Source: Megaustenia siamemsis (Eukaryota > Mollusca > Gastropoda > Stylommatophora > Ariophantidae). Taken from it: a DNA stretch of 64,000 nt. Made by a program: the position numbers and the translations under genes. Below the pieces are notes generated by a model. The model saw only the letters and a list, made by a program, of their open reading frames with translations, did not search any database and was not told the origin of the DNA. The stretch is from NCBI GenBank assembly GCA_032433765.1, contig JAVIAB010000102.1, forward strand, positions 10,066,491 through 10,130,490. The letters are read 5' to 3'. Position 1 is the first letter of the stretch. Every line of letters begins with the position of its first letter. Positions 9,486-58,058 of the stretch are shown in pieces.

Positions 9486-9702
9486 GCCATTCAGCATCTC
9501 ACCTTCTGTTGTACATCTACCATCTGACCTCTGTTGTACATAAACCATCTCACCTCTGTTGTACATCTACCATCTCACCTCTGTTGTACATCTACCATCT
9601 CACATCTGTTGTACATCTACCATCTCACCTCTGTTGTACATCTACCATCTCACCTCTGTTGTACATCTACCATCTCACCTCTGTTGTACATCTACCATAT
9701 GA
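9486..9702. repeat. 25-bp satellite derived from LINE B coding sequence
   Basis: About 8-9 copies of a 25-bp unit (CACCTCTGTTGTACATCTAC plus CATCT). On the minus strand the unit equals LINE B codons for DGRCTTEV, so it seems to have expanded from the element itself. 25 is not a multiple of 3, so all three frames stay open. Confidence 0.93.
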
Positions 9703-20069: not shown

Positions 20070-20075
20070 ATCATT
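20070..20075. other. target-site duplication, left (ATCATT)
   Basis: ATCATT immediately before AGTAGTATAC; repeated at 27039-27044 directly after the inverted end. Confidence 0.85.
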
Positions 20076-20764
20076 AGTAGTATACAAGGGTCCAACTGGT
20101 TAGCATTTAGGCGCGAATTAACAAAGATATATAGCAGGCGCATTTTGCGCGAAATGTACACGGGAGACAAGGGGAGTTAACCATGACATTTCGTGTCGGG
20201 ATGTTGACCTCTAGTCCCGGTGACCCCGGAAGTGACCTGTTTATGTCTGCTTTGTGCTGACTTTGGAGTTCTTGATGTACTTAATCGATAGTGATAGGTT
20301 AGTAGATTATACAACATCAATGAAAAACAATCAATATAAAACAAAAGACAAAAGCTATTTTTTATTCTTTTATTATCTCAATAGGTGTATAACATACAGT
20401 GGATATTATATAACATTACACAAATATTCAGTACAAGAAGTAAATATATAGTACATGGATAACATTTATTTATAGCTATGTAGTTGGTGTCGGCTTAGCT
20501 CTATGTCATCAATGAATCATAAGGGGTGAAACTGTTAGAGATTGCTGGGTAGTCTAAGCTGGTAGTGTAAAGAGTTAATTTATTTAGAGGCGTAGTCGAG
20601 ACGTTATCATCAGCTACCTTTCTTTTTATATAGAAATAGGAAAGAGCATTTCTTGTTTGACTGTAGGAAAATATATAATTATTTAAGACTTTGAAACCTA
20701 CATTCTCTTTCACTAGACTTCTGTCTCACTCCTAGACGTCTCTCTTACCATGCCAGCTTTCATC

Positions 20765-20896
20765 CTCTCTCTCTCTCTCTCTCTCCTAACATTCCACCCT
20801 CCATCGTACATTTAGCTTCCGTCATAGACTTCCCTCCATTGTAACACTTACTCATTCTCTCCATTTAAACCCATTAGCTCTTCATAGCTCCCCTAA

Positions 20897-20936
<40 letters not shown>

Positions 20937-21085
20937 TTCCAGCCTAGATTTCCCGCCATTGAAACACTTACTCATTCTCACCATTTATCCCTATCATCTC
21001 GCCTTCTTTCTCATAGGCTTCTCTCTCTCGCTCTCTCTCTTCTAACCCCTACTAGACTTCTCTCCTACCATTCTACCTTTCTTCA

Positions 21086-21122
<37 letters not shown>

Positions 21123-21145
21123 TTCTCTCTCTCTCTTTACCTCTC
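20765..21145. repeat. CT microsatellites in left arm
   Basis: Several CTCTCTCT runs (20768-20783, 20898-20931, 21091-21140). The right arm has the matching GAGAGA runs at 25983-26350. Confidence 0.9.
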
Positions 21146-21156
21146 CTAAAAAAGTA

Positions 21157-21292
21157 TTATTTTAAATGTTGGAAAACCATGTTCACAAACATCACATTTG
21201 TATTCCGGACGCATATGTACACTCACAACATGTCGCTTTATGTCTCGGCTCCGGTTGAAAGTTTTGGAGCACAGATGACAAGTGTTAGGCAT
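21157..21292 (-). pseudogene. partial C2H2 zinc-finger copy, left arm
   Basis: Minus-strand MPNTCHLCSKTF...RDIKRHVVSVH followed by CDVCEHGF, then it diverges. Mirror image of 25827-25960. First finger intact (C-x2-C...H-x4-H), second truncated. Confidence 0.75.
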
Positions 21293-21389
21293 CTATAGAA
21301 AATAAAATTGAAACATTGCAACTAAAGAATAAACATTAAAGAAGAACTAAAATAACACTTACTTTTTATGTATTTGAAGGCGCGAGACA

Positions 21390-21700
21390 CATTCAGAAAC
21401 CTAAGAGGCAAGGGCAGAAACCTAGGAGGCAAGGGCAGAAACCTAGGAGGCAAGGGCATAAACCTAGGAGGCAAGGGCAGAAACCTTGGAGGCAAGGGCA
21501 GAAACCTAGGAGGCAAGGGCAGAAACCTAAGAGGCAAGGACAGAAACCTAAGAGGGAAGGTCAGAAATCTAGGAAGCTGTGTTAGAAAACAAGGAGGCAA
21601 GGGCAGAAACCTAAGAGGCAAGGGCAGAAACCTAAAGGCAAAGACAGAAACCTAGGAGGCAAGGTCAGAAACCTAGGAGGCAAGGTCAGAAACCTAGGAT
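21390..21700. repeat. 21-bp minisatellite, left arm
   Basis: About 14 copies of CAGAAACCTAGGAGGCAAGG plus G, the reverse complement of the right-arm array but roughly 240 bases shorter. Open frames here (PRFLPLP or RNLGGKG) are repeat-derived. Confidence 0.92.
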
Positions 21701-22231
21701 TTGTTCCTACGTTCATGTGTTCTAATTGCTAACCAGTTGTTCTTATATATCTTCCTAATATCTTCAGGTAACTTATTTAAAGAGTCTATTTCATTAATAA
21801 GTCTTGGTCTCTTTGAGGGCTCTTGAGTCGAACTCTTTACTGCCCGCTTGCGTGAGGTTGTCGATATCAGTGGGTCTGCTAACGTTGATGATGTCGAGAT
21901 TTCCACAGCTGTGTCATGGCTAGCAAGATGTACTTGCAGATAGTTTACCCCAGTGAAGCTTTGTTGACAGATGTGGCAGATATGTTGGGTAGCACTGGTC
22001 TCTTTCGAAGGTACGTGACCTGTTGACACAGTGGTTGGTGAGGCAGGAACTACTGATGCAAGGGACAGGATGCGCTGTCTTGATATGTCTGGCAAGACTG
22101 TCTACTCTTGTATATACTCGTTCACATAAATTACATTTGTATTCATGACACGCATGTACACTAGCAACATGTCGTTTTATGTCCCGGCTACGGGCGAAAG
22201 TTTTGGAGCACAGATGACAAGTGTTAGACAT
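21694..22231 (-). pseudogene. C2H2 zinc-finger gene, left arm
   Basis: Mirror copy of the right-arm gene at 24657-25194, with the same predicted residues and the same frame break. See that entry. Confidence 0.75.
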
Positions 22232-22399
22232 CTGTAGAAAAGAAAATGAAACATTTCAACTAAAGAATAAAGAACAGCAAACATTACAACGGAAGAAAAC
22301 CAGTAAATGTAATCAACGAGACTCACAACTTATCGAAAATAGGTTACTAAAGTAACATACTATAATATTAAAGAACTAAGATAACACTTACTTTTACGT

Positions 22400-23300
22400 G
22401 TCTGAAGGCGCGAGCCACAACCGTCCGCAACAACTGTATTCGTATATCTGATTACAAGCTTCTCAGATATATACACTTGAAACCCCAGAGGTGTTACTAA
22501 AAATAGAACTGACCTCTACGGCAATACCAGATGTGTTACTAAAAATAGTTTTTGACCGCTGACGCAATGCCCGTGGAGTTTCTAAAAATAGATTTGGACC
22601 TATTATGGCAATTTTATGATTTTACCTCCTGACCGTTTTTGGTGACTACGCCCCTGGATTCGACGAAAAGCGTAGATTTTCACTCTAGGCATACCCCAAA
22701 CTTTATTTTAGACATCCCCACGCCAAAAATTTACTTAAAAATCACTTTTGAAATTGTTACCCCCTTAGCATTTTTTGAGGGCTACGCCCATGAATTCGGT
22801 AAAAATCGTAAATTTTCACGCTAGGCATACCCCAAACTTTATTTTAGACATCCCCATACCAAAAATTTACATTAAAAACCACTTTTAGGATTTTACCCCC
22901 TTATAATTTTTTGAGGGTTACGCCCCTGAAATCGATAAAAATCGTAAATTTAGCACGTAGGCTTACTTAAAACTTTATTTTAGACATCCCCACACCAAAA
23001 ATTAACTCAAAAATCACTTTTTAAATTGTTACCCCCCATTACCATTTTTGAGGGTTACGCCCATGGAATCGATAAAAATCGTAAATTTATCACGTAGGCT
23101 TACCTAAAACTTTATTTTAGACATCCCCACACCAAAAATTATCTCAAAAATCACTTTTTAAATTGTTACCCCCTTAAAATTTTTGAGGGTTACGCCCCTG
23201 AAATTGATAAAAAATTGAAATATAACCTCAAGGCATACCTCCCACATAATATTTGACACCCCTACATATCAAATTCCAACAAAAAAAACATCAAAAAGCT
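22400..23300. repeat. 130-160-bp repeats, left inner arm
   Basis: Repeated blocks with TTTGAGGGTTACGCCC, TTTATTTTAGACATCCCCA and AAAATCACTTTT, about 4-5 diverged copies. Earlier (22470-22600) lie shorter repeats with GTTACTAAAAATAG. Confidence 0.85.
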
Positions 23301-23453
23301 AGTAGTAGCTGTGGCTGTGAACATACCCGACCATACTACTTCTCGTGCGGTTTTGGCACCGATACTGGACGAAACAGTATGGGTGCCAAATCTATTGTCT
23401 TTCGGTGCATGTTATTCCACTTTTGGGATGGGTTCACAGCCACAGCTACTACT
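23301..23453. mobile_element. 153-bp mini-element with element 1-type termini at palindrome centre
   Basis: Begins AGTAGTAGCTGTGGCTGTG and ends with its exact inverse. Inside the right end, CGGTGCATG...CCACTTTTGGGATGGG parallels CGGTGCATG...GCACTTTTGGATGGG in the right TIR of element 1 (58010-58040). The left end has CATACCCG, as element 1 has ATACCCG. Flanks are AAAGCT and AGCTTT, inverted rather than direct. It is the only non-palindromic part of element 2. Confidence 0.7.
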
Positions 23454-24270
23454 AGCTTTTTGATGTTTTTTTGTTGGAATTTGATATGTAGGGGTGTCAA
23501 ATATTATGTGGGAGGTATGCCTTGAGGTTATATTTCAATTTTTTATCCATTTCAGGGGCGTAACCCTCAAAAATTTTAAGGGGGGTAACAATTTAAAAAG
23601 TGATTTTTGAGATAATTTTTGGTGTGGGGATGTCTAAAATAAAGTTTTAGGTAAGCCTACGTGATAAATTTACGATTTTTATCGATTCCATGGGCATAAC
23701 CCTCAAAAATGGTAAGGGGGTAACAATTTAAAAAGTGATTTTTTAGTTAATTTTTGGTGTGGGGATGTCTAAAATAAAGTTTTAGGTAAGCCTACGTGAT
23801 AAATTTACGATTTTTATCGATTCCATGGGCGTAACCCTCAAAAATGGTAAGGGGGGTAACAATTTCAAAAGTGATTTTTAAGTTAATTTTTGGTGTGGGG
23901 ATGTCTAAAATAAAGTTTAGGGTATGCCTTGAGGTTATATTTCAATTTTTTATCGATTTCAGGGGCGTAACCCTCAAAAATGGTAAGGGGGGTTACAATT
24001 TCAAAAGTGGTTTTTAATGTAAATCTTTGTATGGGGATGTCTAAAATAAAGTTTCGGGTATGCCTGGAGTGAAAATTTATGATTTTTACCGATTTCATGG
24101 GCATAACCCTCAAAAATGGTAAGGGGAGTTACAATTTCAAAAGTGATTTTTAAGTAAATTTTTGGTATGGGGATGTCTAAAATAAAGTTTGGGGTATGCC
24201 TAGAGTGAAAATCTACGCTTTTCGTCGAATCCAGGGGCGTAGTCACCAAAAACGGTCAGGAGGTAAAATC
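23454..24270. repeat. 130-160-bp repeats, right inner arm
   Basis: Mirror of the left inner arm with about one more unit (roughly 790 versus 660 bases). Confidence 0.85.
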
Positions 24271-24479
24271 ATAAAATTGCCATAATAGGTCCAAATCTAT
24301 TTTTAGAAACTCCACGGGCATTGCGTCAGCGGTCAAAATCTATTTTTAGTAACACATCTGGTATTGCCGTAGAGGTCAGTTCTATTTTTAGTAACACCTC
24401 TGGGGTTTCAAGTGTATATATCTGAGAAGCTTGTAATCAGATATACGAATACAGTTGTTGCGGACGGTTGTGGCTCGCG

Positions 24480-24656
24480 CCTTCAGACACGTAAAAGTAA
24501 GTGTTATCTTAGTTCTTTAATATTATAGTATGTTACTTTAGTAACCTATTTTCGATAAGTTGTGAGTCTCGTTGATTACATTTACTGGTTTTCTTCCGTT
24601 GTAATGTTTGCTGTTCTTTATTCTTTAGTTGAAATGTTTCATTTTCTTTTCTACAG
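24480..24656 (+). promoter_or_regulatory. probable 5' UTR intron of zinc-finger gene
   Basis: GTAAGTG donor after ACACGTAAAA near 24497 and TTTTCTACAG acceptor immediately before the ATG at 24657. The same donor/acceptor pair precedes the second zinc-finger copy (25755 and 25826) and is mirrored in the left arm. Confidence 0.6.
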
Positions 24657-25194
24657 ATGTCTAACACTTGTCATCTGTGCTCCAAAACTTTCGCCCGTAG
24701 CCGGGACATAAAACGACATGTTGCTAGTGTACATGCGTGTCATGAATACAAATGTAATTTATGTGAACGAGTATATACAAGAGTAGACAGTCTTGCCAGA
24801 CATATCAAGACAGCGCATCCTGTCCCTTGCATCAGTAGTTCCTGCCTCACCAACCACTGTGTCAACAGGTCACGTACCTTCGAAAGAGACCAGTGCTACC
24901 CAACATATCTGCCACATCTGTCAACAAAGCTTCACTGGGGTAAACTATCTGCAAGTACATCTTGCTAGCCATGACACAGCTGTGGAAATCTCGACATCAT
25001 CAACGTTAGCAGACCCACTGATATCGACAACCTCACGCAAGCGGGCAGTAAAGAGTTCGACTCAAGAGCCCTCAAAGAGACCAAGACTTATTAATGAAAT
25101 AGACTCTTTAAATAAGTTACCTGAAGATATTAGGAAGATATATAAGAACAACTGGTTAGCAATTAGAACACATGAACGTAGGAACAAATCCTAG
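24657..25194 (+). pseudogene. C2H2 zinc-finger gene, right arm (frameshifted)
   Basis: From the ATG at 24657 the frame gives two C2H2 fingers: CHLCSKTF...RHVASVH and CNLCERVY...RHIKTAH. After about residue 50 the meaningful sequence moves to another frame (from 24793), with a third finger (CHICQQSF...HLASH), a Ser/Thr-rich linker, a basic KRAVKSS...KRPRL stretch and LPEDIRKIYKNNWLAIRTH. It ends at a TAG formed where the 21-bp minisatellite begins, so the C-terminus is lost. Function is probably DNA binding for the element. The W-x-x-IRTH segment reminds me of the region before DNA polymerase B in some invertebrate Mavericks, but this is uncertain recall. The left arm has the same frame break. 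Confidence 0.75.
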
Positions 25195-25735
25195 GTTTCT
25201 GACCTTGCCTCCTAGGTTTCTGACCTTGCCTCCTAGGTTTCTGTCTTTGCCTTTAGGTTTCTGCCCTTGCCTCTTAGGTTTCTGCCCTTGCCTCCTTGTT
25301 TTCTAACACAGCTTCCTAGATTTCTGACCTTCCCTCTTAGGTTTCTGTCCTTGCCTCTTAGGTTTTTGCCCTTTCCTCCTAGGTTTCTGCCCTTGCCTCC
25401 TAGGTTTCTGTCCTTACCTCCTAGGTTTCTGCCCTTGCCTCCTAGGTTTCTGACCTTGCCTTCTAGGTTTCTGATCTTGCCTCCTAGGTTTCTGTCTTTG
25501 CCTCTTAAGTTTCTGCCCTTGCCTCTTAGGTTTCTGCTCTTGCCTCCTTGTTTTCTAACACAGCTTCCTAGATTTCTGACCTTCCCTCTTAGTTTTATGT
25601 CCTTGCCTCTTAGGTTTCTGCCCTTGCCTCCTAGGTTTCTGCCCTTGCCTCCTAGGTTTCTGCCCTTGCCTCCTAGGTTTCTGCCCTTGCCTCCTAGGTT
25701 TCTGCCCTTGCCTCTTAGGTTTCTGAATGTGTCTC
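25190..25735. repeat. 21-bp minisatellite, right arm
   Basis: About 26 copies of CCTAGGTTTCTGCCCTTGCC plus T. It lies between the two zinc-finger modules. Contains a larger internal duplication that includes a TTTTCTAACACAGCTTCC segment, seen twice here (near 25309 and 25552). Confidence 0.93.
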
Positions 25736-25826
25736 GCGCCTTCAAATACATAAAAAGTAAGTGTTATTTTAGTTCTTCTTTAATGTTTATTCTTTAGTTG
25801 CAATGTTTCAATTTTATTTTCTATAG

Positions 25827-25960
25827 ATGCCTAACACTTGTCATCTGTGCTCCAAAACTTTCAACCTGAGCCGAGACATAAAGCGACATGTTGTTAGTGT
25901 ACATATGCGTCCGGAATACAAATGTGATGTTTGTGAACATGGTTTTCCAACATTTAAAAT
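25827..25960 (+). pseudogene. partial second C2H2 zinc-finger copy, right arm
   Basis: Starts MPNTCHLCSKTFNLSRDIKR after a TTTTCTATAG acceptor. First finger complete, second (CDVCEHGF) cut off. It is a diverged tandem duplicate of the module at 24657, including its 5' intron. Confidence 0.75.
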
Positions 25961-25995
25961 AATACTTTTTAGGAGAGGTAAAGAGAGAGAGAGAA

Positions 25996-26026
<31 letters not shown>

Positions 26027-26175
26027 TGAAGAAAGGTAGAATGGTAGGAGAGAAGTCTAGTAGGGGTTAGAAGAGAGAGAGCGAGAGAGAGAAGCCTATG
26101 AGAAAGAAGGCGAGATGATAGGGATAAATGGTGAGAATGAGTAAGTGTTTCAATGGCGGGAAATCTAGGCTGGAA

Positions 26176-26215
<40 letters not shown>

Positions 26216-27038
26216 TTAGGGGAGCTATGAAGAGCTAATGGGTTTAAATGGAGAGAATGAGTAAGTGTTACAATGGAGGGAAGTCTATGACGGAAGCTAA
26301 ATGTACGATGGAGGGTGGAATGTTAGGAGAGAGAGAGAGAGAGAGAGAGGATGAAAGCTGGCATGGTAAGAGAGACGTCTAGGAGTGAGACAGAAGTCTA
26401 GTGAAAGAGAATGTAGGTTTCAAAGTCTTAAATAATTATATATTTTCCTACAGTCAAACAAGAAATGCTCTTTCCTATTTCTATATAAAAAGAAAGGTAG
26501 CTGATGATAACGTCTCGACTACGCCTCTAAATAAATTAACTCTTTACACTACCAGCTTAGACTACCCAGCAATCTCTAACAGTTTCACCCCTTATGATTC
26601 ATTGATGACATAGAGCTAAGCCGACACCAACTACATAGCTATAAATAAATGTTATCCATGTACTATATATTTACTTCTTGTACTGAATATTTGTGTAATG
26701 TTATATAATATCCACTGTATGTTATACACCTATTGAGATAATAAAAGAATAAAAAATAGCTTTTGTCTTTTGTTTTATATTGATTGTTTTTCATTGATGT
26801 TGTATAATCTACTAACCTATCACTATCGATTAAGTACATCAAGAACTCCAAAGTCAGCACAAAGCAGACATAAACAGGTCACTTCCGGGGTCACCGGGAC
26901 TAGAGGTCAACATCCCGACACGAAATGTCATGGTTAACTCCCCTTGTCTCCCGTGTACATTTCGCGCAAAATGCGCCTGCTATATATCTTTGTTAATTCG
27001 CGCCTAAATGCTAACCAGTTGGACCCTTGTATACTACT

Positions 27039-27044
27039 ATCATT
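27039..27044. other. target-site duplication, right (ATCATT)
   Basis: Matches 20070-20075. Confidence 0.85.
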
Positions 27045-44231: not shown

Positions 44232-44548
44232 TGCATCTCACCTCTGTTGTACATCTACCATCTCACCTCTGTTGTGCATCTACCATCTCACCTCAGTTGT
44301 ACATTTACCATCTCACTTCTGTTGTACATCTACCATCTCACCTTTGTTGTACATCTAGCATCTCACCTCTGTTGTGCATCTACCATCTCACATCTGTTGT
44401 GCATCTACCATATCACCTCTGTTGTACATCTACCATCTCACCTCTGTTGTACATCTACCATCTCACCTCTGTTGTACATCTACCATCTCACCTCTGTTGT
44501 ACATCTACCATCTCACTTCTGTTATACATCTACCATCTGAACTGTTAG
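44232..44548. repeat. 25-bp satellite derived from LINE B coding sequence
   Basis: About 12 copies of the same 25-bp unit as 9486-9702 with several point variants. Confidence 0.93.
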
Positions 44549-49160: not shown

Positions 49161-49713
49161 ACTATAACATTAGGGTAGTAACTTGTAGCATCTTCTTCAT
49201 CGTTCAAGTCTTGTGTTCATGCGAACTTGACTCTTTGTCCTGTTTCACGAAGGTGGGGCATGAACAACATCACGACACACGATGAGCTGGTCGCATGGTC
49301 AGTACTCTTATATGCGTGTGAGTCATGATTCTCCCCCTAAACCTGCGCTGTGGCTGACACATTCCGTCTCCGGCAGGGTGGATATAAATTTGACTTATAG
49401 CTTGTTTCATAACTCGTGCCCAACTTTTAAAATCGATAGCTTTTTAACCGCTTGTTGTAAGTTCTTGAAAATTTGCATGTAAAGTTATAATGATTAGAAC
49501 CCAACAGGGAATTAATTTCATTAAAAAAAACATTTGGTTATTATTGTTGCTTATTTGATTTATATAAATTTATAACGACCCATTGATGTAGTCAAAACTT
49601 AATGTTTACAGTATTTTAAGTTAAAAATAGCGAGAAAAATCCATACACGGTAAAATTAACGTGTTTGCATGCTTTCGCCGTGGTTTTTTTGACACAATTA
49701 GACACTTGAGAAA

Positions 49714-50759
49714 TTGCGTGTTCCATTTCCGTTCATTCAGAGGTGTAGACGTGAAATTCGCAAAATGTTGGGTATGAATGAAACTGTTACAATAAGAAAA
49801 TTAAAAGTTTCGCTGAAAAAGAACAACAGTATTGAAATATCAAAGTCTACATTATGGAGGAATGTGAGAGCTGCGGGCTTTACATTCAGAAAGTATTCCA
49901 ATGGACGAAACATCATCTGTGAGAAGCCACATATAGTAGTTATGAGAAACAAGTACTTACGTGAAGTAAAAGAGGTGCGCAAGCAAGGTTATGATATTGT
50001 GTACTTGGATGAAACATGGATCAATGTTCACCACACTAACCAAAGGGAATGGCAGTCATCAGATGGAAAGATTAAGAGATTAATACCTAGCAGCAAAGGA
50101 CAGCGCTTGATAATTGCTCATGCAGGTAGTCGACAACATGGACTAATACAGAATGCAGAGCTCATTTTTCTTTCAAAATCCATAGACAATCGGGATTATC
50201 ACTCTGAGTTGAATGGTCACATATTTAGACATTGGATTGAAAATTCTGTTCTCCCATCACTAGATCGACCATCTTGCCTAATAATAGACAATGCAGCGTA
50301 CCACAACATTGTTGCACTTGAAGATAAAGTCCCGACGTCATCCAGTACAAAAGATGCTATTAAAATATGGCTCACAAAGGAGCACATACAATTTAATAAC
50401 ATATACTTAAAACCTGAATTACTATCTCTAGTAAAGCAAAAACAAAGGACAAAGATTTTTGAAATAGATAAGATTATCCAAGAGCACGGTCATATAAGTT
50501 TGAGGCTGCCACCTTACCATGCTCATTTAAATCCAATAGAACTAATCTGGGCAAAATTAAAAGGACAATTGGCAGATGAAAATACAACATTCAAAATATG
50601 CGATGTAAAGACTCTTGCTAATCGCGCTGTACTAAATATAGACAAAGATTATTGGGCTGAATGTGAAGACCACGTCTTAAAACAGGAAGGGGAATATTGG
50701 AAAAATGATGGTTTGTGGAATGTTCAACCCCAAACGGTTATTAATCTTTTAGACTCGTC
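49714..50759 (+). pseudogene. DDE transposase with long D-E spacing (DD82E/Sailor-like), interrupted
   Basis: DDE_3-type transposase of the IS630/Tc1/mariner superfamily. A helix-turn-helix part is seen at residues 21-60 (TIRKL...ISKSTLWRNV). The catalytic triad is D99 (VYLDETW), D192 (IIDNAAYH) and E276 (HLNPIELIWAKLKG), with 83 residues between the second D and E; canonical mariners have about 34. The frame upstream of 49714 is closed by TAG, so the first helix-turn-helix is missing or in another exon. The coding frame is intact up to 50759, where element 1 begins. On its far side (58065-58077) the same frame resumes for four residues and reaches TGA. The long-spacing family I recall is Sailor (DD82E). 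Confidence 0.85.
50754..50759. other. target-site duplication of element 1, left (CTCGTC)
   Basis: CTCGTC before GGTAGTAGTGG; repeated at 58059-58064. Confidence 0.9.
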
Positions 50760-51731
50760 GGTAGTAGTGGTGGCGGTATACCCGCACCTTAAGTGCACGA
50801 ACATGTACCGAAACAGCACCAAAGACAATGGATTTTGCATCGAAACCGCACGAAACTGGCACCAAATCCGTGCAAAAGTCCGATAATCGGCTTATTATCT
50901 CGGTGGTCGGCTCGGCTTATCTCGTGACGGCTCGGTGGTAATCGGCTTATCGTGTGCGTGACGGCGTGCGAGTCGGCTCTCGCGGGGTCTGTCGCTCGCT
51001 GGCTATGGACACCAGTGGTTCTAAAACGTGTGTTTCAGCGGTTCTAAAACTTGCGCGCTCATGCCGGTTATCTCGGGCGGGACGTGCGGGTGGTGAAAGG
51101 GGGTGCCTTTATTGGTCGAGTGTGTTATTAGTATCGTTAGCATCATGTGTGAAGTGGGTATTAGGCAACAGGAGGCGACATGTAAAAAAAGTGCTGACAA
51201 GCAATGGTGTTGAAGTGGGGTATTGTTAGGAAAAGGTAAATACGACTATCTCGCGTGCGACGAGGGTGGGGGAACGGGGTTGGTCGGCACAGGGTGTGTT
51301 ATTGTAGTATCGCTAACATCATGTACCAGGTGTGATTATAGCGATTTTTTTAGTAACACATCATCAGCATGTGCCACCCTCAACAGCAACATGTACCCTT
51401 CATGTCCTATCATCATCATCATGTGCCACCCTCAACAGCAACATGTACCCTTCATGTCCTATCATCATACCACACAAAGTATCAAACCGATTATTAGTGA
51501 CACATCATCAGCATGTGATACCCTCAACAACATCATCAACCCTTTATGTCCTATCATCATCATCATCATCATCATCATCAAGCCACAAAAAGTATCAACC
51601 AGCGAAATTCTCTCTCTCTCTCTCTCTTTCACATTCATGGTAAAGCAAAACAACATTCGATCTATATTTTACACCTTTATTATTAATACAACAAAATATA
51701 CAACATATATATATTACTGTCCGGTTGTTGA
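50760..51731. repeat. element 1 left terminal inverted repeat
   Basis: About 970 bases matching the right copy in reverse. Shared tracts include CGATAATCGGCTTATTATC, GGACACCAGTGGTTCTAAAA and TATTACTGTCCGGTTGTTGA at the inner edge. It contains short repeats with ATCATCATCATGTGCCACC, one copy more than the right side. It includes a minus-strand AATAAA (51674-51681 region). Confidence 0.9.
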
Positions 51732-51802
51732 CTTTGGGCATCCATGGGCCCCTCGAAGCCGAAGTATCCACGGGGTGAGCAAACGATAAATGATACGATC
51801 GT

Positions 51803-52219
51803 TTATGTGCTGTCTCGATGAAAAAGGCATGAGAATTCTGTTAATTTAGAGCCACGACACTTAAGAAGTATATAATAAACACAATATAGACCGCACGTGT
51901 TGCTAAACAAATCTTGCAACACCCGCGGGTTGTAGACGAATGGAACGTGTGAGTTTTGCTCTATAAAGTTTAAAATATCCACGTGTCTGGGAGGCAAACC
52001 GTAGGAATCGAAATACTCACATTCGAGGAGACCGTTGTAAAATAGGGCCACCCAATGCTCACCGGGTTCGTGGGCAGGGTCGGTGTTTATGACAAAGGCT
52101 GCGGTCGCCGTTGGGTCGATGCTGGGCGGTAAGTGTTTTCGTGGAATGACACTAAATAGGGAACAACGTCGAACGAAAATATCCGACATCAAAAGGTTGT
52201 AAATCTCCCTCGTGTTCAT
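51803..52219 (-). CDS. adenain-like cysteine protease (C5 family)
   Basis: 138-residue protease of the kind that matures capsid proteins in adenoviruses and Mavericks. Visible catalytic residues: H55 in GEHWVALFY, D71 in CEYFDSYG, Q102 in PRVLQDLF and C109 in SNTCGLYCVYYIL, in the order His-Asp-Gln-Cys expected for C5 proteases. It starts MNTREIYNLL, a usual opening for the Maverick version. It is shorter than adenovirus adenain (about 200 residues), as Maverick proteases often are. It follows the capsid gene by 16 bases and is the last gene of the block; a polyadenylation signal sits in the TIR beyond it. Frame intact. Confidence 0.9.
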   Translation of the reverse strand: MNTREIYNLLMSDIFVRRCSLFSVIPRKHLPPSIDPTATAAFVINTDPAHEPGEHWVALFYNGLLECEYFDSYGLPPRHVDILNFIEQNSHVPFVYNPRVLQDLFSNTCGLYCVYYILLKCRGSKLTEFSCLFHRDST

Positions 52220-52235
52220 CTTCTTCTTCTTTCTC

Positions 52236-53915
52236 TCAAACGGCGAAGTCTGTTAGAATCTGCCTTGTCATTGACACCTCGAGCACCGAGTCCAACTCGG
52301 CGTAGACGATAACTTGTATGGGAGTAGTTGTGGGAGCGGCAAACTTGAGTTCTATCGACAAGGGTCCGCTTGTGGCTAGCTCAAAATGGGAGCCGTCCTT
52401 GAACTCTCTATAATCAACGTTATTCCCAGCGTCTTTACTAATCAGACCCATGGCCAGATTTGTGCCGAAAAAAGCTCTCGCGTATTGATTTCGTTCAAAG
52501 TCCATAGCTAGAGGCTTTCCCGAGATACATTTCCCGTCGACCGTCAGGTTCATATAAATCAGACCAAAGTGTTGAAAATTGAACGGGTTAGCTGTATAAA
52601 CACCATTAAACGCACTGGCCGTAATCAGACCTATCACTATACGGGTCGGTGTTTGAGACAAAAATAAATTGTCTTGACTGTGAGAGAACATCCCGCTAGC
52701 GATGGAAAATGTCTTAATGGTAACCCTCTTGATCGGGTACCGCGCATTCCCGCTTAAGAGAGCCTTTTCGTTGGCCAGAGAAATCGCGGGGTTTAGCTTA
52801 GCTTTCCTGACCACGAGCGCGGCGTAGGTGATAACACTCTTATAACCCACAGAGCTATCGTGACCCGTGAGGTTGAACACATCCTTCGAGGGCGTGAGTT
52901 TTATCTTTACATTGACTCTGTTTAACATGTAACGATCCTGCACAAAGACATCAGAGTGCAAACGACCCATCATTTCAACCTCTTTACTACCCGAAGTCAA
53001 ATCGCGCCGTGTTTTAAAACCCTCATTTTCTTTCAAGTCGTTGTGGTGGCCAGCTGTGTCTTTGTAGAACAGAGCGGCCGTCAAGTATCCCGTTTTCGCA
53101 TCCTCCCCGTAATTTAGCGTGGCCTCAAACACTGCTCTAAAAGGATAGGTATTCTCCGACGGTGTAACCAACGTGTCGTTTAGCGATACGTCGACTTGTG
53201 AAAATAAACTGTGAAGATAATTGTTGACCGGTCCTACCTCAGCATCGGGTGGTACACTATCACCATTCGGGAGAGTGATCTTGACCCGCAGATGTAAAAA
53301 CGTGTTGAAAAGATCTAGATACTCCTCGCTGTTTCCAGAAATGAAAATCTCTATCGGTGTGCTATGCGACAAGGCTGCGATCGGACGAATTTCAATAAAC
53401 TGGCCAGAGTCTAGAGATGTCTGTGTGGGTGGAACGCTAAATAAATCCAAACCAGAGTGAAGACATTCGCACGATTTGGGGTGAATGAGGGGCATTATTA
53501 GTCGAAAATATCCTTTGCCACCCTCGTCTTCTTGCTGTTGTGCACCGAATGAAGGGGGGAGCCGTCTAGCTGTCGGTTTTATCCTTTTCGTAACGGGTTC
53601 TCCTGGTGGAGGTAACTTCATAACTCGCTTTCTGCTTTGTCGTAAACCACTTCTTGATTGGTTGTTAACACTCAGGTGGTCTACGGCCCCGTGTATCAAC
53701 CGCTGACCGGCCTCCTTAGCTCGTTTTTTGAAAGCTTCACCGACATTTTTCCCGGCTAATGCGTCCTGTGCGACCTGCAGACCGGTCCCCAAGCTTTCTC
53801 TGAGCAAAGCCTTACCGCCGGTTTTTAACCAGGGTAAAATAGCCCTCCCGATTCCACCAAAGAAACTACCGATTCCTCGACCGCTCTGACTTCGACCTCC
53901 TATAAACACGGGCAT
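52236..53915 (-). CDS. capsid-type protein (F54H12.2-like) fused to basic N-terminal protein
   Basis: One open frame holds two units that I recall as separate in related elements. From Met at 53915: MPVFIGGRSQSGRGIGSFFG, a Gly-rich and amphipathic stretch (ILPWLKTGGKALLRES), then a basic tail (KRVMKLPPPGEPVTKRIK), resembling small adenovirus-like core or minor virion proteins. From Met at 53495 (MPLIHPKSCEC): LDLFSVPPTQTS, GPVNNYLHSLFSQVDVSLN, YGEDAKTGYLTAALFYKDTA and a C-terminal beta-rich region, the family annotated as F54H12.2-like in invertebrates and probably the hexon-type major capsid protein (inference; double jelly-roll not testable by eye). The frame is open to 53990, but a GGTATAATGG motif at 53989-53996 favours starting at 53915. 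Product 559 residues if fused. Confidence 0.82.
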   Translation of the reverse strand: MPVFIGGRSQSGRGIGSFFGGIGRAILPWLKTGGKALLRESLGTGLQVAQDALAGKNVGEAFKKRAKEAGQRLIHGAVDHLSVNNQSRSGLRQSRKRVMKLPPPGEPVTKRIKPTARRLPPSFGAQQQEDEGGKGYFRLIMPLIHPKSCECLHSGLDLFSVPPTQTSLDSGQFIEIRPIAALSHSTPIEIFISGNSEEYLDLFNTFLHLRVKITLPNGDSVPPDAEVGPVNNYLHSLFSQVDVSLNDTLVTPSENTYPFRAVFEATLNYGEDAKTGYLTAALFYKDTAGHHNDLKENEGFKTRRDLTSGSKEVEMMGRLHSDVFVQDRYMLNRVNVKIKLTPSKDVFNLTGHDSSVGYKSVITYAALVVRKAKLNPAISLANEKALLSGNARYPIKRVTIKTFSIASGMFSHSQDNLFLSQTPTRIVIGLITASAFNGVYTANPFNFQHFGLIYMNLTVDGKCISGKPLAMDFERNQYARAFFGTNLAMGLISKDAGNNVDYREFKDGSHFELATSGPLSIELKFAAPTTTPIQVIVYAELDSVLEVSMTRQILTDFAV

Positions 53916-53985
53916 TCCATCACCCGCCTGACAACAGTTAAAAGTCTTCGTATAACTCAACATCTCGATGAAGGGGGTATGTCTC

Positions 53986-53997
53986 ACCATTATACCA
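53986..53997 (-). promoter_or_regulatory. TATA-like element before capsid gene
   Basis: Minus-strand CTGGTATAATGG about 75 bases before the Met at 53915. A similar GGTATAATC lies upstream of the ATPase gene (56049-56057). A TATAAAAA also occurs inside the integrase remnant (54076-54083, minus). Confidence 0.35.
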
Positions 53998-54042
53998 GCT
54001 CGAGATGCTTCTTCACTCGAAATTGTACCGTTAGCACCGACG

Positions 54043-54642
54043 TCACGCTGGTGAATTGACGTCGACCGGTGCCATTTTTATACTTCTGTGATACGAATGG
54101 TTATAACTTCGAAGTAGAGTCCTATTAAAGCGTTCCACCATGGCGGCCTTAATATCTTCGTTCTGCGTAGTGAAAAAGTGAACGTTGTTGTCAGCGAGGA
54201 ATTTCTGAAATGTTCTGTTCAGAAACTCTGACCCTTATCCGTTTGAAAACTCGCGGGTTTCCCATCGAGGAATATCTCACCGACGGCTTCCACTAAGGAT
54301 TTCCCCGTTTTGGTTCGTATCGGTACAGACCACGCGAATTTACTGAAAACATCCACGCAAGAAACCAAATAGGAATATCCATCGTTGTGTTTTTTTCAAA
54401 TGTCTCAAATCAATTAGGTCTGCCTGATATTGCTGTTGGGACCCACTCGTTATAATGGGACGCCTTTCAAATCTGCGACGAATTGGTTTATGAAGGGTAT
54501 AGGTATCCTGATGACTCAGCCATTGTTTGATCTTTGCGAGTCCCAGTTTGGTGTTACGTTGCAGAGCCGTTGCACCACTATACGCCCCTGGTCGACTAGG
54601 GTCAAAGTAATGACGTCTCAATATTTTCTCCACCGTTCCCAT
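54043..54642 (-). pseudogene. retroviral-type integrase, decayed
   Basis: DDE (rve-family) integrase that inserts Maverick DNA. It starts MGTVEKILRRHYFDPSRPGA with a zinc-binding-like N-terminal region. The first catalytic Asp is in YQADLIDLR. The second (FQTDKG) and the catalytic Glu (MVERFNRT) are both present but each lies in a different frame. Breaks: a frameshift at the A/T run 54390-54396, another near 54226-54232, and an internal deletion at about 54118 that removes some 25 residues before SYNHSYHRSI. It stops at 54043 with no chromodomain. The copy cannot encode a working integrase. Confidence 0.88.
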
Positions 54643-54683
54643 TTTGGTGTTGGGATTCCGCTCTTTCTTTTTTTAGGTCTCAG

Positions 54684-55070
54684 TTAATACGTGGTTACGG
54701 GCGGAGTGGTTTCATTACCTAGCTTTGGGGTTTCCGCTGGTGGTAGTGTCTTTATCTGCTCTGGTGATACCTCGATTGATGGTGGTGGGGAAGGTGTTTT
54801 TTCTGTTGCCATGTTGTGTTGAATGAGATCGACCGAGCCCAATGAGCGTCGTTTATACTGCAACAATCTAGTTAAATATTGATGCAGGGCACGTTGGTAC
54901 ACTCTGGCTTTAACGGCGGGTGCTAAATCATCGCGTAATAGGATACGTTGCATTTCATCATCTAAATCTCTTAAGTTGTCACCGATCGCCTCGGGTAGGG
55001 TATACGTGCTAGTAGTCTGTTTAAGACCCTCGAGGAATCGAGGATCCTTCAAAATCATTTTTTTGGCCAT
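54684..55070 (-). CDS. small Maverick-associated protein 2
   Basis: 128 residues starting MAKKMILKDPRFLEGLKQ. It has an N-terminal helical part (LDDEMQRILLRDDLAPAVKARVY split by short loops), a central basic segment (LQYKRRSLGS) and a Pro-rich tail (TPSPPPSIEVSPEQIKTLPP). Two bases after the preceding gene's stop and 41 before the integrase start. I recall similar proteins in invertebrate Mavericks, of unknown function; a minor virion protein is plausible. Frame intact. Confidence 0.75.
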   Translation of the reverse strand: MAKKMILKDPRFLEGLKQTTSTYTLPEAIGDNLRDLDDEMQRILLRDDLAPAVKARVYQRALHQYLTRLLQYKRRSLGSVDLIQHNMATEKTPSPPPSIEVSPEQIKTLPPAETPKLGNETTPPVTTY

Positions 55071-55072
55071 TG

Positions 55073-55399
55073 TTACGCACCTAGTACTCCACCGAGAATA
55101 CTTAATATAGTACGGAGCAAAGCACCTATGAACCCACCGGTTTGTAGAATCTCTTTCTGCCGCTTAAGATTCGGTTTCTTTTTAGTGAGAAGTCTCAACT
55201 TGTTCTTGTGTCCACGTAGCTCGCACTTCTGTCGCTGAGTGAGTCTAACATTACCTTTTAATATGTTATGACAACACTCGCACAAAAAGTTAATGAGTTT
55301 GGGAGAGGCTGTTTTTAATATGGCTCTTAAACCGCTCGGCGAGGCGGCGCGCATACATTTCAACATTTCACCGTGCCGTCTAAGTGCTTCATCACACAT
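55073..55399 (-). CDS. small basic Maverick-associated protein 1
   Basis: 108 residues. Cys-containing N-terminal half (LINFLCECCHNILKG), a strongly basic middle (LTKKKPNLKRQKEILQ) and a Gly-rich hydrophobic end (GGFIGALLRTILSILGGVLG). The last part could be membrane-active or a virion peptide, as in adenovirus-type core or lytic peptides, but function is unknown. It follows the ATPase stop by 6 bases. Frame intact. Confidence 0.75.
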   Translation of the reverse strand: MCDEALRRHGEMLKCMRAASPSGLRAILKTASPKLINFLCECCHNILKGNVRLTQRQKCELRGHKNKLRLLTKKKPNLKRQKEILQTGGFIGALLRTILSILGGVLGA

Positions 55400-55405
55400 G
55401 ATTCT

Positions 55406-56029
55406 CTACTTTGGCACGTAGACGATTTGTCTCTCCCCCGGGAATATTTTTGTTCTCAACCTAAGATTATCAGGTGTGTCCTGACGAAGATCGACCAGCA
55501 AATAACCGTAAGGAGACGCTGTCGCGTCCTTAAAACTATCTTGGAGGTACCCCACCTGTGCTGGGTACATTTGTTTAGCCAGATTGATAATTTGACTCCG
55601 GTCTCTCGGGTTCTTGAAAAGGACTAAATAGTGCGTATTGAGACTTATGGTTCGATGTTCTTTATTTTTTCCGAAGAGATTTTGAACAATGTACATCACA
55701 CTAATATCTCTGTGATGACTACCTTTGGTGAATAATTTTGTTACCAGCTCGTCCGTCTCAGACATCAAGTCATCGATAACGATCAGTCTTCTCTTCTTAC
55801 CACCTTCCAATTTATCGACGTCTGGTAGACCCTCGATAAATCTCACTGACCCCATAGTCTCGTATATCGGCTGCCATTCCGCATAACACCATTTAACTTC
55901 CTCCGGTACGGGGACAGCTAACTCGTGAAGGTTCTGTATGAACTTTTGCACAAATACCGTTTTCCCACACCCGGTAGGACCGGCTATCAGAGCTGTGAAG
56001 GGATGATTACATCGGGGATCCATCCTCAC
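55406..56029 (-). CDS. genome-packaging ATPase (FtsK/HerA, A32-like)
   Basis: 207 residues. Walker A GPTGCGKT at residues 17-24, Walker B RLIVIDDL at 81-88, and a Gln/Asn sensor-like VQNLFG near 115-120, followed by LNTHYLVLFKNPRDRSQI. This is the Maverick/Polinton packaging ATPase, related to poxvirus A32, which pumps DNA into capsids. The start could be the first Met or the third residue (MDPRCNHPF), which matches the usual beginning of the family. First gene of the minus-strand block. Frame intact, all nucleotide-binding residues present. Confidence 0.93.
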   Translation of the reverse strand: MRMDPRCNHPFTALIAGPTGCGKTVFVQKFIQNLHELAVPVPEEVKWCYAEWQPIYETMGSVRFIEGLPDVDKLEGGKKRRLIVIDDLMSETDELVTKLFTKGSHHRDISVMYIVQNLFGKNKEHRTISLNTHYLVLFKNPRDRSQIINLAKQMYPAQVGYLQDSFKDATASPYGYLLVDLRQDTPDNLRLRTKIFPGERQIVYVPK

Positions 56030-56426
56030 AAGTGCTACTAACTTTAGTGATTATACCACCGACAAAAATAACAACGAGTGATTTTAGGTCAGCGCCCAAG
56101 GTTTCCACTCTTCAACTAACACCTATTTTTAAAATCCACAACCTATATAAACACTACAGGGGGAGGAGTTTCCTAGTCTCAAGCCGCATTACATGAGACC
56201 GAATTGTTACACGCATCATATTTACCCACACATCACCCTATTGGGTCAGTTCCAGAGGTCACTGAACATGTCGCAACATAACGTATTACCACGCCTGATA
56301 ACGTATTGCGTTAGCTACTATAAATAGACGGTCCGTAACGGGTATAAAAACCCCAGTCGATCAGTGTACACGCACATACATAACCAGCGTCTGTTGCCAG
56401 GTGGTTTGTGTTTGTTTTCTTTGAAT
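56030..56426. promoter_or_regulatory. divergent promoter region of element 1
   Basis: Separates the two transcription directions. On the plus strand TATAAATA (56319-56326) and GGGTATAAAAACCCC (TATA at 56343-56349) precede the PC4-like gene. On the minus strand GGTATAATC (56049-56057) precedes the ATPase gene. A poly-pyrimidine stretch lies between. Confidence 0.55.
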
Positions 56427-57167
56427 ATGGAGTCGTGTAGCTTGAATACGCCAATTTCGTTTGATGTCAGTGATCAGCGCATATTTATGTCACGTGGAAA
56501 TGAGACTGTAGTTCCATTGTCTAAAGATGGCGTTAAGGCAGTCTCGGTTTGTGTTTTTCGTAACAGACCATTGATAAATATAAGGACATATAGCGGTGAT
56601 AGTTTTTTGAAGTTTCCTACCAGAACTGGGATAACACTATCGAGAGAGGAATTTATCACGTTAGTTGAGATGCGAGAGGAAATTTTAACCGCTTATGTTA
56701 ACCTCAACTACACACCGCCTGTTGTTAACCAGATCAACTACACGCCACCTCTCGTTAACCAGATCAACTACACGCCGCCTCTCGTTAACCACCAAAACTA
56801 CACACCGCCTCTCGTTAACCACCAAAACTACACGCCACCTGTTGTTAACCACCAGAACTACATACCATCTCTTGTTAACCCGAATCTCATCGACTACACG
56901 CCCCCCTTTGTTAATCAAGGGAACCTCGCTCTTGTTAATCAGACGACAGATCCGGCAGCCAATATGAATGCCGCGGGTGTTTCAGCAGAGTCACCAATTA
57001 CCTATTCCAGCTTTGATCAAGGTTTTGTCAAAATGGAGGGCGGTTGTGTTTTGAAGGCTAATGAAACTTCCTATGTACCCGTGTTTGATAGACATTTAAC
57101 AAACAGTACCACTAAAACAGGAGGGAGGAAACCCAGACGCTTAAAATTATCAACAACCGGACAGTAA
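56427..57167 (+). CDS. PC4-like domain protein with decapeptide repeats
   Basis: 246 residues from the Met at 56427; the open frame extends back to 56364, but the TATA box at 56343 would start transcription after that upstream ATG. The N-terminal part (VPLSKDGVKAVSVCVFRNRP, then INIRTYSG and TRTGITLSREEFITLVE) has the beta-beta-beta-helix pattern of PC4/p15 single-stranded DNA-binding transcription coactivators. Then come about six 10-residue units NYTPP(L/V)VN(Q/H)(I/Q) and a final variant. The basic C-terminus (GGRKPRRLKL) could bind nucleic acid or direct nuclear entry. The stop codon lies in the right TIR. A role in replication or late transcription is inference. Confidence 0.7.
   Translation: MESCSLNTPISFDVSDQRIFMSRGNETVVPLSKDGVKAVSVCVFRNRPLINIRTYSGDSFLKFPTRTGITLSREEFITLVEMREEILTAYVNLNYTPPVVNQINYTPPLVNQINYTPPLVNHQNYTPPLVNHQNYTPPVVNHQNYIPSLVNPNLIDYTPPFVNQGNLALVNQTTDPAANMNAAGVSAESPITYSSFDQGFVKMEGGCVLKANETSYVPVFDRHLTNSTTKTGGRKPRRLKLSTTGQ
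56706..56885 (+). repeat. 30-bp in-frame repeat in PC4-like gene
   Basis: AACTACACGCC(G/A)CCTCTCGT-type 30-bp units encoding the decapeptide; about six copies. Confidence 0.9.
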
Positions 57168-58058
57168 TATATATATACTTTCAAATATGTGTTGTATATT
57201 TGTTGTATTAATAATAAAGCTGTGAAATATAGAACGAATTTTGTTTTGCTTTACCACGAATGTGAAAGAGAGAGAGAGATAGAGAATTTCGCTGGTTGAT
57301 ACTTTGTGTGGCTTGATGATGATGATGATGATAGGACATGAAGGGTACATGTTGCTGTTGAGGGTGGCACATGATGATGATGATAGGACATGAAGGGTAC
57401 ATGTTGCTGTTGAGGGTGGCACATGATGATGATGTGTCACTAAAACAATCGCTATAATCACACCTGGTACATGATGTTAGCGATACTACAATAACACAAC
57501 TGTGCCGACCAACCCCGTTCCCCCACCCTCGTCGCACGCGAGATAGTCGTATTTACCTATTCCTAACAATACCCCACTTCAACATCATTGCTTGTCAACA
57601 TTTTTTGTTACATGTCGCCTCCTGTTGCCTAAATACCCACTTCACACATGATGCTAACGATACTAATAACACACTCGACCAATAAAGGCACCCCCTTTCC
57701 CCACCCGCACGCCCCGCCCGAGATAACCGGAGTGAGCGCGCAAGTTTTAGAACCGCTGAAACACAAGTTTTAGAACCACTGGTGTCCATAGCCAGCGAGC
57801 GACAGACCCCACGAGAGCCGATCACGACCCGCACGCCGTCACGCACACGATAAGCCGATTACCACCGAGCCGTCCACCGAGCCCTCACGAGATAAGCCGA
57901 TTACCGCCACGACCACCGAGATAATAAGCCGATTATCGGACTTTTGCACGGATTTGGTGCCAGTTTCGTGCGGTATCGATGCAAAATCCATTTTCTTTGG
58001 TGCTGTTTCGGTGCATGTGCGTGCACTTTTGGATGGGTATACCGCCACCCCTACTACT
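57150..58058. repeat. element 1 right terminal inverted repeat
   Basis: About 910 bases, reverse of 50760-51731 with scattered differences and one fewer ATCATC-type internal repeat. Holds the last codons of the PC4-like gene and an AATAAA near 57212, so the two transcript directions both end in the TIRs. Confidence 0.9.

Follow-up and report, generated by a model that had tools for sequence, protein, structure and literature searches.

Palindromic elements with Maverick-type ends and polymerase B genes in the gastropod Megaustenia siamemsis

We analyzed a stretch of 64,000 nucleotides from the genome of Megaustenia siamemsis (assembly GCA_032433765.1, contig JAVIAB010000102.1, forward strand positions 10,066,491 to 10,130,490), referred to below as the window, in which a palindromic element of 6,963 bp occupies positions 20076-27038. 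The hexamer ATCATT borders it on both sides as a target-site duplication (20070-20075 and 27039-27044), AGTAGTATAC forms the start of the element on both strands, giving the end motif (AGT)2...(ACT)2, and the left and right arms, of 3.2 and 3.6 kb, are mutually inverted. The original prediction for this DNA had described these ends, the direct ATCATT repeat and the inverted arms, and all three proved exact to the base. The best explanation of our findings is that the element belongs to a Maverick/Polinton-type family whose members exist as palindromes.

The outermost 689 bp of the two arms show no difference, and with the central 136-bp array excluded only 9 of 2,678 alignment columns are mismatched. 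Inside this array 18 further mismatches were counted, in an uncertain register. The right arm exceeds the left by 231 bp of a 21-bp minisatellite and about one 136-bp unit, in line with the differing copy numbers that had been predicted. The inverted symmetry ends at the target duplication, beyond which only 19 of 60 flank positions match in inverted orientation, and across 20 single-base shuffles of its sequence no exact inverted match was longer than 22 bp. Comparison with an empty site gave no clean empty paralogue, the joined flanks of the palindrome matching other copies of a long interspersed nuclear element (LINE) in the window only from 4 bases past the junction.

From the end inward, each arm comprises a terminal repeat with the last 124 nt of a polymerase gene, a TC/AG microsatellite, a copy of a zinc-finger exon, the 21-bp minisatellite, a 135-codon open frame and the 136-bp array, which leads to a 153-bp spacer at the axis (23301-23453) that was absent from the original prediction. 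In the left arm, the terminal inverted repeat (20076-20704, + strand) is 94% identical to the end of a polymerase-bearing relative, L039, and holds the 3' end of the polymerase gene in its inner 124 nt (20581-20704). It is followed by the TC-rich stretch (20770-21145), the outer zinc-finger exon copy (21181-21317, - strand), 14.6 copies of the minisatellite (21394-21699), the open frame (21694-22101, - strand) and the 136-bp array (22647-23213). Beyond the spacer, the right arm runs through the longer 136-bp array (23540-24241), the inverted copy of the open frame (24787-25194, + strand), 25.6 copies of the minisatellite (25189-25725), the second outer exon copy (25802-25938, + strand) and the AG-rich stretch (25970-26350) to the terminal inverted repeat (26410-27038, - strand), which includes the 3' end of the polymerase gene (26410-26533). 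The left-arm frame contains a C2H2 zinc finger, below the Pfam cut-off when scored on the inverted copy in the right arm, and an N-terminal piece of a zinc-finger polymerase B. Rfam gave zero matches within the window, and no tRNAs were found there.

The element is one of many. We searched the 2.59-Gb genome with the outer 711 bp and scored 40 places out of 4,556 first-look candidates; many of the 40 form plus/minus pairs with a spacing of 5-15 kb. Seventeen elements were read at both ends, namely that of the window, L021-L030, C50, C51b, C125, C51c, C90 and C124 (the interiors of C50, C51c, C90 and C124 in part), with the single hits on C107 (two) and at C151:38726398 standing outside this set. 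An exact 6-bp target-site duplication was present in 15 of the 17, among them C124 with a right end that lacks two bases, and supports the predicted insertion of the palindrome as one unit. In C90, the right end and its duplication lay in a 1.2-kb stretch that was picked by mirror symmetry about the axis. The (AGT)2//(ACT)2 motif is present in the window element and in the ends listed, in a changed or shortened form at both ends of C51b and at the right end of C124. No one-armed copy with different ends, the finding that would have spoken against the original prediction, occurred among the 17, which were gathered by a search based on the ends that would miss other ends.

The extent of the palindromes was assessed by comparing 11 elements with their own reverse complements, recording what share of the bases fell within any inverted match, with tandem repeats counted. 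This share was 1.0 for the window element, L023, L025 and L026, 0.98 for L030, 0.97 for L022, 0.95 for L021 and also for L024, 0.84 for L027, 0.83 for L028 and 0.45 for L029. It thus reached at least 94% in 8 of the 11, a figure that is raised by the tandem repeats and takes in L024 with its right end missing. Hairpin adapters are able to create false palindromes, and the original prediction had already argued against such a read artefact; the many diverged copies answer this worry. Exact duplications stand at both ends of 15 of 17 loci, the arms differ by substitutions as well as in repeat number, and the lengths are element-specific, which leaves an assembly or hairpin-read artefact with practically no credence.

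In outline, the palindromes are also like ordinary cut-and-paste fold-back elements of the FB, Galileo and TU type, which have inverted repeats over nearly their full length with tandem repeats inside. Those elements have longer target duplications and P- or MULE-type transposases and lack a polymerase, whereas in the family described here the duplications measure 6 bp, the ends read (AGT)2 and relatives of the window copy carry polymerase B genes. Moreover, no transposase-like frame of at least 120 codons was seen by eye in 20076-27038. We therefore regard a fold-back element of this type as very improbable. Vertebrate Mavericks have (AGT)2//(ACT)2 ends and a 6-bp target duplication, according to PMC8097293; together with the polymerase B of the relatives, these features bear out the Maverick-style duplication proposed in the original prediction. 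Palindromic Mavericks were not met among the best-ranked matches of our literature search, which covered few subscription papers. Three scans of viral contigs (P0010 and the alignments A1 and A2) yielded zero confirmed relatives, the 6 and 85 pattern matches from A1 and A2 failing in tblastn, and among phage records there were none.

Two loci of the family are more complex. At C51:41859330-41880827 (L037, L038), a single duplication (taggat) encloses 21.5 kb in which the terminal repeat occurs four more times internally, each time in + orientation. At the C50 locus, an inverted duplication (L031 4954-5286, L032 5319-5651) extends into ~330 bp of flanking host DNA, which looks as though the palindrome had set off a fold-back event in the chromosome.

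Larger members of the family carry the polymerase gene. C51b, C125 and C90 measure 11,398, 11,200 and 11,277 bp, respectively, and these three members of ~11.2-11.4 kb follow one plan: two inverted blocks, each composed of terminal repeat, polymerase B gene and 136-bp array, on either side of an axis spacer of ~150 bp. An outward-reading frame for zinc fingers and polymerase B is present in both arms of C51b, C125 and C50 as well as in the single arm read of C90 and of C124. The arms match over 4,670 bp at 99.5% in C51b and over 4,692 bp at 99.85% in C125. In C125, a single frame stays open for at least 1,344 codons in the right arm, and the left arm has an in-frame stop; in all other arms read the frame is broken, and in C50, whose locus spans 15.4 kb with other sequence, it lies in pieces. 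The only frames of at least 80 codons in the central stretches L053 and L054 are the start of the zinc-finger frame (84 codons) and one 80-codon frame of no recognised meaning.

The polymerase frame of C90 (1,223 codons) was itself scored by no Pfam family. It has 824 homologous proteins at E <= 1e-5 among 7,993 candidates scored; many of the 120 homologues listed carry PF03175 or C2H2 fingers, and those named in this list come from Bradybaena, Pomacea, Littorina, sea stars, a sea cucumber and amphioxus. By themselves, these matches point to a mollusc as the probable host. L049, a relative in the same genome, passes the PF03175 cut-off with 30.1 versus 25.8 bits. A PDB sequence search with the polymerase frame returned just two weak zinc-finger matches, and PHROGs nothing useful. 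A protein-primed polymerase B is present in the relatives C51b, C125, C90, C50 and C124, and the window copy keeps only its N- and C-terminal pieces. Further PF03175 polymerase B matches in L042 (C137), L043 (C154) and L048 (C87), one of them a frame of 1,025 codons, appeared unlike that of the palindromes by eye. Lists of frames with lower limits of 80-150 codons, read by eye, showed no retrovirus-like integrase and no capsid, protease or packaging ATPase gene in the window palindrome, L031-L040, L053 and L054, with L021-L030 and the interiors of C50, C51c, C90 and C124 outside this check.

The ratio of nonsynonymous to synonymous substitution rates (dN/dS) was 0.146 for C125 versus C51b and 0.156 for C125 versus C90 (745 codons). 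Comparisons with L049 gave 0.143 and 0.158, and the stretch before it 0.172 and 0.321; the very close pair C90/C51b gave 0.302, and the zinc-finger ends with C50 and C51c 0.355 and 0.390. Short zinc-finger pieces, including the two of the window copy, reached 0.570, 0.614 and 0.699. As judged from these substitution patterns, the polymerase of the palindromes is shown to be under selection.

The window element has lost its polymerase from the codons after ...HERRN onward. The deletion junction, at which GAACGTAGGAACAAAT is joined to CCTAGG, is present in both arms (21698-21699 and 25189-25190) and is private to this element: the 16 nt that precede the join occur 16 times elsewhere, at 10 other loci, and 15 of these occurrences continue into ACATGGA, the remaining one, in the left arm only of L021, being a junction of its own. 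We regard the window copy as a deletion derivative that is not autonomous. A 229-bp polymerase deletion in C50 is likewise found in both arms and is missing from C51b, C125 and C90. L025 has losses in both arms, and L030 nearly so, with a 43-nt piece left on one side. In a tree of terminal repeats with 32 rows, 9 of 14 two-armed elements group their own arms together; the two L026 arms have one and the same sequence, which an L023 arm also has, and the tree does not resolve L022, L023, L027 and L028.

Within the polymerase-bearing elements, the arms differ at 7 of 2,991 (C51b), 5 of 3,000 (C125) and 1 of 2,010 (C50) aligned bases, that is, by 0.05-0.23%. Over the same stretches, different elements differ by 0.70-0.97% within a subfamily and by 6.5-7.3% between subfamilies. 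The arms of an element are thus alike while the elements differ far more, and one arm has therefore been copied onto the other; if the palindrome is as old as the sharing of the axis would suggest, independent evolution of the arms would predict the reverse order of differences. Such copying might have taken place in the chromosome after insertion, by gene conversion between the arms of inherited palindromes, as in those of Y chromosomes. Long inverted repeats do convert, and the arm identity of the window element drops towards the 136-bp array, where the register is uncertain. However, the three polymerase-bearing copies are at least 99.8% alike between their arms in the outer 2-3 kb, whereas the lineages of elements lie up to 7% apart, and homogenisation therefore acts along lineages. 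In addition, the moved axis of L026, described below, requires a fold-back step. We consider gene conversion after insertion to be quite improbable.

The axis itself is widely shared. With the axis of L023 as the query, the centre was matched in 14 of 15 elements, a set that did not take in L026 and C50; L029 is the exception, and L021 and C124 matched in the flanks only. In several elements other than L026, the axis appears by eye as a stem of ~22 nt beginning AGTAGT with a loop of ~100 nt, and it is damaged in L022, L027 and L028. L026, with 5,209 bp and arms that are 99.3% identical, has its axis within the zinc-finger/polymerase reading frame. The sequence TTTACTG...GATATCAGT occurs 14 times in 8 other elements and each time continues into GGGTCTGC. 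In L026 the continuation is AAAGAGATC, which reads as the reverse complement of sequence ~30 nt upstream, and the turn-back is joined via the 4 nt CAGT with a loop of 25 nt. Such a junction points either to fold-back copying or to a deletion that spanned a hairpin and was symmetric to within 25 nt. We do not take L026 as proof that a palindrome was born from a one-armed parent, because a near-symmetric deletion in the hairpin of a palindrome already present would look alike.

In principle, every palindrome could arise anew from a linear parent with one arm that folds back once at the axis tip, and could end as a dead-end insertion that does not replicate as a palindrome. This explanation accounts equally well for the identity of the arms and the symmetric deletions, and it agrees with the fresh axis of L026 and with the clearly defective window copy. 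On the other hand, zero one-armed parents were found among the 17 elements, and the axis site is common to 14 of 15 elements including polymerase-bearing ones (L021 and C124 by their flanks). Repeated origin from linear parents is thus, in our opinion, unlikely.

One side of the axis tracks, for 54-94 nt, the terminal repeat of a second Maverick-type element of the window (50760-58058), and the axis spacer of the window palindrome is an inverted pair of tips that resembles this repeat. In the five elements tested, the local scores between axis and tip were 56 (window), 41 (L023), 46 (L025), 64 (L030) and 69 (L024). The best of 500 single-base shuffles scored 26, 26, 29, 27 and 34, respectively, so that 0 of 500 reached the real score. 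We also considered that the 153-bp spacer is a mini-element inserted into a finished axis. The flanks of the spacer are inverted copies and not a clear 6-bp direct repeat, but as they are palindromic, a direct repeat of 2 to 6 bp can be read in some copies, and such an insertion may have occurred.

The second element, of 7,299 bp, carries capsid-type genes and is bordered by the target-site duplication CTCGTC. Its terminal repeats of 972 and 909 nt are identical at 837 of 866 aligned bases, and it is inserted within a DDE_3 transposase-like frame (49702-50886). Its genes code for a major capsid protein that matches no Pfam family, a protease (PF00770, just above the cut-off), a protein like PC4 (PF02229) and, by weak scores below the cut-offs, an ATPase-like protein. 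The predicted model of the capsid protein is weak (pLDDT, predicted local distance difference test, 54), yet Foldseek returned 181 matches at E <= 0.001. The 50 listed of these are capsid or capsid-scaffold chains of large DNA viruses and virophages, and the matches listed include PBCV-1, SGIV, Sputnik, mavirus, EhV-201, faustovirus and vaccinia D13, which are double-jelly-roll proteins. No polymerase or integrase was seen by eye among the frames of at least 120 codons, of which five were scanned. Among the 120 capsid relatives listed, 15 have a longest contig of 7.0-8.0 kb. The window as a whole is rich in minisatellites; 25-bp arrays at 9495-9698 and 44234-44538 share the unit CATCTCACCTCTGTTGTACATCTAC and adjoin LINE fragments that are cut off at one common point.

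We conclude that the palindromes are probably made and kept by fold-back copying in protein-primed replication and inserted by a Maverick-type integrase in trans. Replication would start at the (AGT)2 ends, whose trinucleotide repeat fits the jumping-back mode of initiation of adenovirus. The displaced single strand would then fold at the axis into a giant hairpin, in which one arm would template the other, and a change in a single arm would be either copied to both or lost. The first palindrome may have formed when a strand copying the polymerase arm reached the tip of a capsid-type element lying inside the arm and folded back on it. Insertion of the finished palindromes is assumed to depend on integrase from elsewhere, and capsids, if any are made, would be supplied by helper elements. 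Replication by protein priming via a single-stranded intermediate has been suggested for Mavericks (PMC4061559).

Several observations weigh against this explanation. Deletions in L021, L028 and L029 are asymmetric; therefore, copying is not complete in every cycle, or these deletions post-date insertion. Whole-arm identity in the non-autonomous copies is lower, at 94-99% with repeats included, and the outer 620 bp of one L022 arm, one L027 arm and both L023 arms match another element at least as well as their partner. The duplication is inexact in L024, where 4 of 6 bases match, and in C51b, where 5 do. Selection appears weaker in 4 of 12 dN/dS comparisons (0.30-0.39) and weaker still in 3 of 12 (0.57-0.70). 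The L026 junction is also explicable by an internal deletion that spans the hairpin of a pre-existing palindrome. At the common axis site, another AGTAGT tip is present in L021 (AGTAGTGAGGAGGGTG...) and C124 (L040); it may be the terminus of a third family of Maverick type, conceivably one with an integrase. Neither an integrase nor a terminal protein was seen in the stretches read, which leave out several interiors, and their supply in trans is an assumption. Finally, an assembly cannot display replication intermediates.

Palindromic defective derivatives are familiar from adenovirus and yeast linear plasmids, in which a strand folds back and copies itself into an inverted dimer with two identical ends. 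These derivatives and other fold-back inverted duplications are defective products or chromosomal rearrangements (compare PMC3907307), whereas the palindromes described here form a mobile lineage under selection. They share with Mavericks/Polintons (polintoviruses, adintoviruses) the end motif, the 6-bp duplication, terminal repeats and, in the larger palindromes, a protein-primed polymerase B. They differ from those elements, which have one polymerase, in being palindromes that are polymerase-only, with one such gene per arm, or that carry even less. In vertebrates, intact Mavericks contain eight conserved genes (seven in Xenopus tropicalis), including those for integrase and capsid (PMC8097293). 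In their ends, their mode of insertion and the polymerase that they carry, the palindromes are of the Maverick type; we do not file them as complete Mavericks, since a check of the listed parts revealed neither integrase nor capsid genes.

Bidnaviruses and the Drosophila Vesanto virus are similar in that their polymerase B derives from Mavericks and lies on a small linear segment of its own, which has inverted repeats. They differ in the parvovirus-type capsid of bidnaviruses, and neither is described as a full palindrome in the sections available of PMC4061559 and PMC8363768. As in a segmented genome of the bidnavirus kind, the polymerase and capsid genes sit here on separate elements. A multipartite Maverick, consisting of a self-replicating palindromic polymerase segment with two polymerase copies and arms copied anew in each cycle, the 7.3-kb capsid segment with related tips and an integrase on a further segment, would make hairpin replication the normal life cycle of a lineage of animal DNA viruses or transposons rather than a defect; we offer this as a tentative possibility, which we hold to be rather doubtful.

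Deletions and substitutions that appear in both arms together make the family a natural record of fold-back copying and give a direct way of testing this mechanism. The family illustrates a way for palindromic genomes to persist as a mobile lineage, and it raises the possibility that Mavericks may be split into polymerase and capsid segments.

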